Source: Gemmatimonadota bacterium (lineage in GTDB: Bacteria; Gemmatimonadota; Gemmatimonadetes; Longimicrobiales; Gaopeijiaceae). From it: 64,000 nt of DNA. Each line of letters opens with the position of its first letter. Position 1 is the stretch's first letter. The DNA is taken from NCBI GenBank assembly GCA_028875075.1, contig JAPPGF010000030.1, positions 1 through 64,000 of the forward strand, given 5' to 3'. Below are positions 59,952 through 61,154 of this stretch, piece after piece. Position numbers and translations under genes: made by a program. A model generated the notes under the pieces. The model did not search any database and was not told where the DNA came from. It saw only the letters and a list, made by a program, of their open reading frames with translations.

Positions 59952-61154
59952 TTACTCGATAATCTCCGTCACCACCCCCGCACCCACCGTCCGCCCCCCC
60001 TCGCGGATGGCGAACCTGAGCTCCCTGTCCATGGCGATGGGCGTGATCAGCCCGATCTCCATCTGCACGTTGTCGCCCGGCATCACCATCTCGACGCCGT
60101 CCGGCAGCTGCACTGCCCCGGTCACGTCCGTCGTGCGGAAGTAGAACTGAGGACGGTAGTTGTTGAAGAACGGAGTGTGGCGGCCGCCCTCGTTCTTGGT
60201 GAGGACATAGACCTCCGCCTTGAACTTCGTGTGCGGATTGATCGAGCCGGGCGCCGCCAGCACCATCCCGCGCTCGATCTCCTCCTTGCCGACGCCGCGC
60301 AGCAGCAGCCCGACATTGTCGCCCGCCTGTCCGTCGTCGAGGATCTTGCGGAACATCTCGACACCGGTCACCACGGACTTCTTGCTGGCACCGAGGCCGA
60401 CCATCTCGACGCTCTCGCTCACCTTTATCTTCCCGCGTTCGATCCGGCCGGTGGCCACCGTGCCGCGGCCCGTGATCGAGAACACGTCCTCCACGGGCAT
60501 CAGGAACGGCTTGTCCACGTCGCGCTCGGGCTGCGGGACGTTCTCGTCCAGGGCGTCGAACAACTCCTGTATGTTATCGAGCCAGGCCTCGTCGCCCTCG
60601 ATCGCCTTGAGCGCGGAGCCGCGAATCACCGGGGCGTCGTCACCGGGGAACTGGTACTCGGAGAGCAGCTCACGTACTTCGAGTTCCACCAGATCCAGCA
60701 GCTCTTCGTCGTCCACCAGATCGCACTTGTTCAAGTATACGACGATGTGCGGCACGTTCACCTGGCGCGCGAGCAGTATGTGCTCGCGCGTCTGGGGCAT
60801 CGGGCCATCCACGGCGGACACGACCAGGATCGCGCCGTCCATCTGCGCGGCGCCCGTGATCATGTTCTTGACGTAGTCGGCGTGCCCGGGGCAGTCGACA
60901 TGGGCGTAGTGTCGCTTCTCGGTCTCGTACTCAACGTGCGAGGTCGCGATCGTCAAGATCTTCGTCGCGTCGCGACGGCCCTGCGACTCCGAGGCCTTTG
61001 CCACCTCGTCGTAGGAGACGTACTTCGTACCGTATCCCCTGTCCGACGAAATCTTCGTGAGCGCCGCGGTCAGGGTCGTCTTGCCATGGTCCACGTGCCC
61101 GATCGTGCCGACGTTCACGTGAGGCTTGGTCCGCTCAAACTTCGCCTTAGCCAT
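59952..61154 (-). CDS. tuf: Elongation factor Tu with variant switch I
   Basis: GTPase that delivers aminoacyl-tRNA to the ribosome. The 400-aa protein has the P-loop GHVDHGKT (19-26), [16 protein letters not shown] and SALK, plus intact domains 2 and 3. The switch I/effector loop is unusual. The usual APEEKARGIT-type segment is replaced by [13 protein letters not shown] (residues 55-67), about five residues longer and without the Arg-Gly pair. The following Thr68 and SHVEYET align with the Mg-binding Thr and its context. The frame is continuous. It lies between fusA and rpsJ. Confidence 0.97.

Follow-up and report, generated by a model that had tools for sequence, protein, structure and literature searches.

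The 64,000-nucleotide stretch of DNA analysed here, referred to as the window, derives from a Gemmatimonadota bacterium and carries a tuf gene whose product, elongation factor Tu (EF-Tu), has a switch I loop unlike that of textbook EF-Tu proteins. Does this gene encode a working elongation factor and, if so, where does its loop come from? Switch I of elongation factors has been regarded as invariable, and the Arg-Gly (RG) type of loop underlies models of how GTP is sensed, how EF-Ts exchange proceeds and how drugs act.

The gene lies in the tufA position of the str/S10 operon, in the order fusA-tuf-rpsJ, and its product scores 713.4 bits against the TIGR00485 equivalog model (cut-off 522.4) over its full length, residues 1-400. 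The P-loop, the NKCD and HVEYET motifs and the Mg-coordinating Thr68 (Thr61 in E. coli) are all intact, and the adjoining EF-G retains the standard RGITIT switch I (ERGITIT), both as described in the first-pass annotation of this DNA. A second tuf copy, for which that annotation proposed a search, was not found: an EF-Tu query of the genome (91.6% complete) returned only the window gene, and the remaining GTP_EFTU hits gave no match to it. The single copy found argues for a role of this EF-Tu in aminoacyl-tRNA delivery and ribosome-stimulated GTP hydrolysis.

A lengthened, rewritten loop without its Arg-Gly pair had been reported at residues 55-67 (bases 60992-60954), and we find it exactly there. 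The stretch from [FY]DxI to TI comprises 22 residues in window EF-Tu versus 17 in the canonical protein (FDxIDKAPEERERGITI), a gain of five that equals the initial estimate, and Lys65-Ile66 stands in place of Arg-Gly. A second genome of the window's genus (G034) bears the identical loop; its tuf gene (L217) is interrupted by a string of N with repeated sequence on its flanks, which resembles a gap in the assembly more than an insertion.

Table 1. Features of the tuf region in the window, and sequence sets referred to in the text.
Feature	Position	Strand	Basis or remark
rpsJ, S10	59556..59864	-	closest to own family (control gene)
tuf, EF-Tu, 400 aa	59952..61154	-	sole copy found in genome; TIGR00485, 713 bits
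Domains II-III, residues 206-400	59955..60539	-	resident, own-family history; identity and AU tests
Remaining G domain, residues 81-205 (86-205 tested)	60540..60914	-	88% to other-family long type versus 83% to own family
Second small G-domain patch, residues 181-195	60570..60614		site likelihoods
Leu146, candidate coupled site	60717..60719	-	Met in most canonical, almost never in long type, seven groups
Segment tracking loop type, not taxonomy, residues 25-80	60915..61082	-	95% to other Gemmatimonadota long type, 51% to own family
22-residue long-type switch I segment, residues 48-69 (canonical: 17)	60948..61013	-	translation and alignment
Reported loop, residues 55-67	60954..60992	-	K65-I66 at the place of RG in other EF-Tu
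fusA, EF-G	61241..63346	-	standard switch I; C-terminal part closest to own family (control gene)
Mixed-genome tuf pairs			L366+L436, L365+L437, L364+L438, L394+L441
Short-class rows			L312, L317, L322, L323, L327, L330, L332, L432-L435, L443, L453, L454, L467, L472

The loop was initially taken for a peculiarity of this lineage, one that would be unremarkable if shared by many distant phyla. It is so shared: in the alignment with Gemmatimonadota and other phyla that the annotation had called for, the long loop is found almost letter for letter across about 12 bacterial phyla. A DNA-pattern scan of a species-genome collection gave at least 118 long-type loci which, among the matches listed, belong to Gemmatimonadota, Nitrospira, Planctomycetota, Kiritimatiellae, Lentisphaeria, Victivallales, Acidobacteriota, Myxococcota, Eisenbacteria, Omnitrophota, Auribacterota, Endomicrobium, UBP3 and the gammaproteobacterial order Nevskiales; isolates with the long type include Hydrocarboniphaga effusa, Solimonas and Stagnimonas. 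In up to 121 genomes per group, 469 EF-Tu sequences were read, and these fall into three switch I classes with no intermediate lengths among them: canonical RG (17 residues, n = 167), long RRD-x-[TS]-K-I (22 residues, n = 279) and short RD-SK (19 residues, n = 23), counts that are not frequencies, because the query biased the sample to the long type. Among evenly sampled Gemmatimonadota, 48 of the 77 readable genomes have the long type and 29 the canonical one (3 were unreadable). Occurring as it does in G034, in these 48 genomes and at the loci elsewhere, the loop is neither chance nor read error.

The long type, whose core is QGRRDx[TS]KI[LM]T, is near-invariant in Gemmatimonadota, Nitrospira, Planctomycetota, Verrucomicrobiota, Acidobacteriota, Myxococcota, Elusimicrobiota, Nevskiales and smaller phyla, with Y48, A52, R60, R61, K65 and T68 unchanged across 85 dereplicated long-type rows. 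The short class (19 residues, YAEIAKGGTVRDASKIVTI), found in Planctomycetota, Elusimicrobiota and Verrucomicrobiota, has the RDx[ST]K core in common with it. What we take to be the classic elongation-factor signature, a pattern around E-x-x-R-G-I-T-I used here as a test of canonical switch I, matched 164 of the 167 canonical rows and none of the 279 long-type or 23 short-type rows. The long-type distribution cuts across taxonomy, and long and canonical types occur together in seven groups, which indicates several replacements. Thus, the lineage is ordinary but the loop class is remarkable, because the loop exceeds most of the gene in its conservation across phyla and has a mobility separate from that of domains II-III. 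We found no account of a long switch I class in the open-access literature, where text is not searchable by meaning; the loop peptide had no match in open-access paper texts, and a search of the Protein Data Bank for a long-type EF-Tu found none.

Replacement is seen in the window's own genus. Of the 121 genomes and 40 genera of the family that were compared, only 2 genomes and a single genus, that of the window, have the long loop. For neighbouring genes, the best identity to the own family exceeds the best identity to long-type members of other families (EF-G, 82 versus 75%; S10, 96 versus 86%; L3, 77 versus 63%). In EF-Tu the corresponding values are 51 versus 95% for residues 25-80, 83 versus 88% for residues 86-205 and 86 versus 83% for domains II-III. 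AU tests within the phylum reject a placement of window domains II-III with the long types (p = 0.009), and reject grouping with the own family both for residues 25-80 (p = 0.001) and for residues 86-205 (p-AU = 0.031). As residues 86-205 are also closer to the other-family long type, the imported piece probably spans most of the G domain.

The same discordance extends across phyla. With the switch I columns masked, the EF-Tu tree groups by taxon, not by loop type. AU tests with full IQ-TREE searches were run on 50 rows from five groups. Domains II-III (residues 206-400) reject monophyly of the long type under both LG+R4 and LG+C20 (p-AU = 2e-6, delta lnL 136), and their maximum-likelihood (ML) tree coincides with the taxonomic one; for residues 25-80, the taxonomic grouping is rejected (p-AU = 6e-5, and still 8e-5 with the loop residues removed) and a long-type clade is accepted; the rest of the G domain (residues 86-205) fits either history. 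Per-site likelihoods amount to +221 over residues 25-80 and -131 over residues 206-400, and the sign of their profile switches close to residues 16-30 and 75. Given these opposite verdicts, bacterial EF-Tu is a mosaic between the switch I segment and domains II-III. An earlier quick AU test (mixture model, 85 rows, residues 86-400) had failed to reject long-type monophyly (p = 0.23) on the basis of a poor tree search, in which two other constrained trees outscored the free tree; it was treated as a search failure and redone on the 50 rows. Site likelihoods also track loop type at residues 181-195, a further small patch of the G domain that possibly touches the start of switch I. DNA identity of the tract between groups is at best 85%, at up to 98% amino-acid identity, so that the transfers of the long-type segment are probably old, and exact breakpoints and donors cannot be fixed.

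How could such a loop serve the same protein? The annotation proposed that EF-Tu timing, or the interaction with EF-Ts or antibiotics, may be altered in this lineage. The structure model that the annotation had suggested was computed with AlphaFold, and it places window EF-Tu in a GTP-like, three-domain arrangement (TM 0.90 to 1EXM and 1EFT, about 0.54 to GDP forms). Residues 57-72 have pLDDT <50, the loop being of low confidence in long and canonical models alike. A single continuous helix is predicted at residues 48-56, whereas that of the canonical control breaks at the proline; the first switch helix of the long type would thus be extended because the canonical Pro is gone, with the extra residues forming a flexible bulge. 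The Mg-coordinating Thr and the preceding hydrophobic residue would still close over GTP, which would preserve GTPase chemistry, and Arg60, Arg61 and Lys65 may assume the charge role of canonical Arg58. Beyond the segment, co-variation is strongest at Leu146 (E. coli Met139). In long types this position is Leu in Gemmatimonadota and other residues in Acidobacteriota and Nitrospira, and its different replacement in each group suggests coupling to loop type rather than hitchhiking.

We consider it highly probable that window EF-Tu is a working protein whose G domain bears an alternative, highly constrained switch I, and that this form was disseminated through recombination of segments of tuf. 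The loop classes are discrete, the long class is broad, its history is mosaic and it has replaced the canonical form in the window's genus. In recombination with the tuf gene of another lineage, the part exchanged would be about residues 25-80, in some cases extending to most of the G domain, with domains II-III and the adjoining genes left resident. As for what favoured the swap, our preferred, though tentative, reason is avoidance of an agent that recognizes canonical switch I, be it a protease, a toxin or an antibiotic.

Genomes with two EF-Tu copies offer a different history. Three Acidobacteriota (G442, G472 and G498) and one Myxococcota (G606) combine a long-type tufA, in the str operon with fusA and rpsJ flanks, with a canonical tufB in a tRNA-Thr-Tyr-Gly-Thr / Trp cluster. 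Both forms can therefore coexist, which provides a possible route for exchange; the same four genomes would also be expected if two ancient tuf paralogues, one of each type, had long existed side by side in many lineages, had their domains II-III homogenized by gene conversion within genomes and one type was lost later. We regard the paralogue history as improbable: domains II-III are not homogenized in the three Acidobacteriota pairs (68-84% identity per segment), the loop types agree in the 14 Gemmatimonadota genomes from which both copies were read, and confinement of the loop to 1 of 40 genera of the family would require many losses. A further, strongly diverged tufB-locus EF-Tu, L439 of the acidobacterium G458 (57% identity), reads GVPLN for GITIN and thus has Pro at the Mg-threonine position; tufA there is of the long type. 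Diverged extra EF-Tu paralogues with 48-61% identity to window EF-Tu (L442, L444, L446, L447, L448 and L449) occur in Planctomycetota and Myxococcota.

A known agent acting on switch I is the phage-exclusion protease Lit, which cuts EF-Tu between Gly59 and Ile60 (PMC3014915). As the annotation had pointed out, this site is lost from window EF-Tu, which has Ile66-Leu67 there, and resistance to Lit is plausible on the basis of its sequence. That Lit-like proteases selected for loss of the Gly-Ile site is an unlikely explanation all the same. Genes of the family (Peptidase_U49) are present in only 2 of 121 Gemmatimonadota genomes (L496 and L497), with none found in the window genome, and show no signal of co-occurrence with the long type across those 121. 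Moreover, Lit kills its own host cell as an exclusion device, and escape is not clearly favoured. The L497 homologue does sit in a long-type genome (G111), in a frame with an in-frame TGA. Rare as Lit is in Gemmatimonadota, its evasion is left without support as the driver.

Spread of intact long-type tuf genes among phyla by whole-gene horizontal transfer would account for the likeness of long-type G domains across phyla, and in one tree residues 86-400 of the Nevskiales long type do fall beside Gemmatimonadota. We nevertheless hold it to be very unlikely, as a long-type clade is rejected for domains II-III, which group with their own taxa, and the gene order and neighbours in the window are resident. 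For the groups tested, whole-gene transfer is refuted by domains II-III following their own taxa. Repeated independent evolution of the long loop out of the canonical form, driven by one shared functional demand, is less credible still. A FastTree phylogeny of 195 rows implies 24 type changes, and the related RD-SK short form exists; against convergence stand a near-invariant 22-residue string of identical length in about 12 phyla and the flanks outside the loop (residues 25-50 and 67-80), which group by type as well (p = 8e-5); intermediate loops, which would have favoured convergence, do not occur among the 469 sequences. Finally, a sequence error, pseudogene or decaying second copy, the reading to which a loop so unlike textbook EF-Tu might first give rise, is refuted and of negligible probability, since the frame is open, the gene is the sole copy found, and the identical loop recurs in G034 and hundreds of sequences.

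Segmental recombination of tuf, which we favour, makes a core informational gene mosaic between phyla, and this bears on its use as a phylogenetic marker. At least two interchangeable forms exist of a part of the translation machinery that had seemed near-universal. As the main or sole EF-Tu of many phyla, just as constrained and passed on as a segment of the gene, the long type offers a natural experiment for finding out which elements of the switch are required. More speculatively, switch I of bacterial EF-Tu might exist as two or more interchangeable alleles of distinct function, which recombination keeps circulating across phyla because some widespread antagonist directed at switch I, such as a protease, toxin or natural product, selects for swapping, an idea in which we place somewhat less trust than in the avoidance of such an agent as such. 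If true, the most conserved functional loop of EF-Tu would act like an exchangeable resistance epitope.

Compared with canonical bacterial EF-Tu (TIGR00485; the E. coli protein and the Thermus structures 1EXM and 1EFT), window EF-Tu has the same three domains, G motifs, Mg-coordinating Thr, operon position and GTP-like predicted fold, together with an equivalog score above the cut-off; it differs in a switch I that is five residues longer and lacks both Arg-Gly and Pro-Glu-Glu. The only distinct EF-Tu class named in PMC4342817 is actEF-Tu. Like the long type, actEF-Tu, with the duplicate tuf of Streptomyces, is a distinct EF-Tu sequence class, but it is an extra paralogue in some actinomycetes, whereas the long type, defined by switch I, serves many phyla as their sole or main EF-Tu. 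Interchangeability of EF-Tu between species has likewise been probed by replacing tuf in E. coli, where foreign homologues at 69-82% identity could not support growth alone (PMC5574714); whole genes were swapped there, as opposed to segments in the long-type case. A precedent is recombination of EF-1alpha genes between distant archaea (Inagaki, Susko and Roger 2006, cited in PMC4530459), which resembles the tuf case as a segmental exchange within an EF-Tu/EF-1A gene between distant lineages. From the archaeal case, the exchange of tuf differs in being bacterial and repeated, and in that a discrete alternative switch I, set apart by an indel, is carried along.
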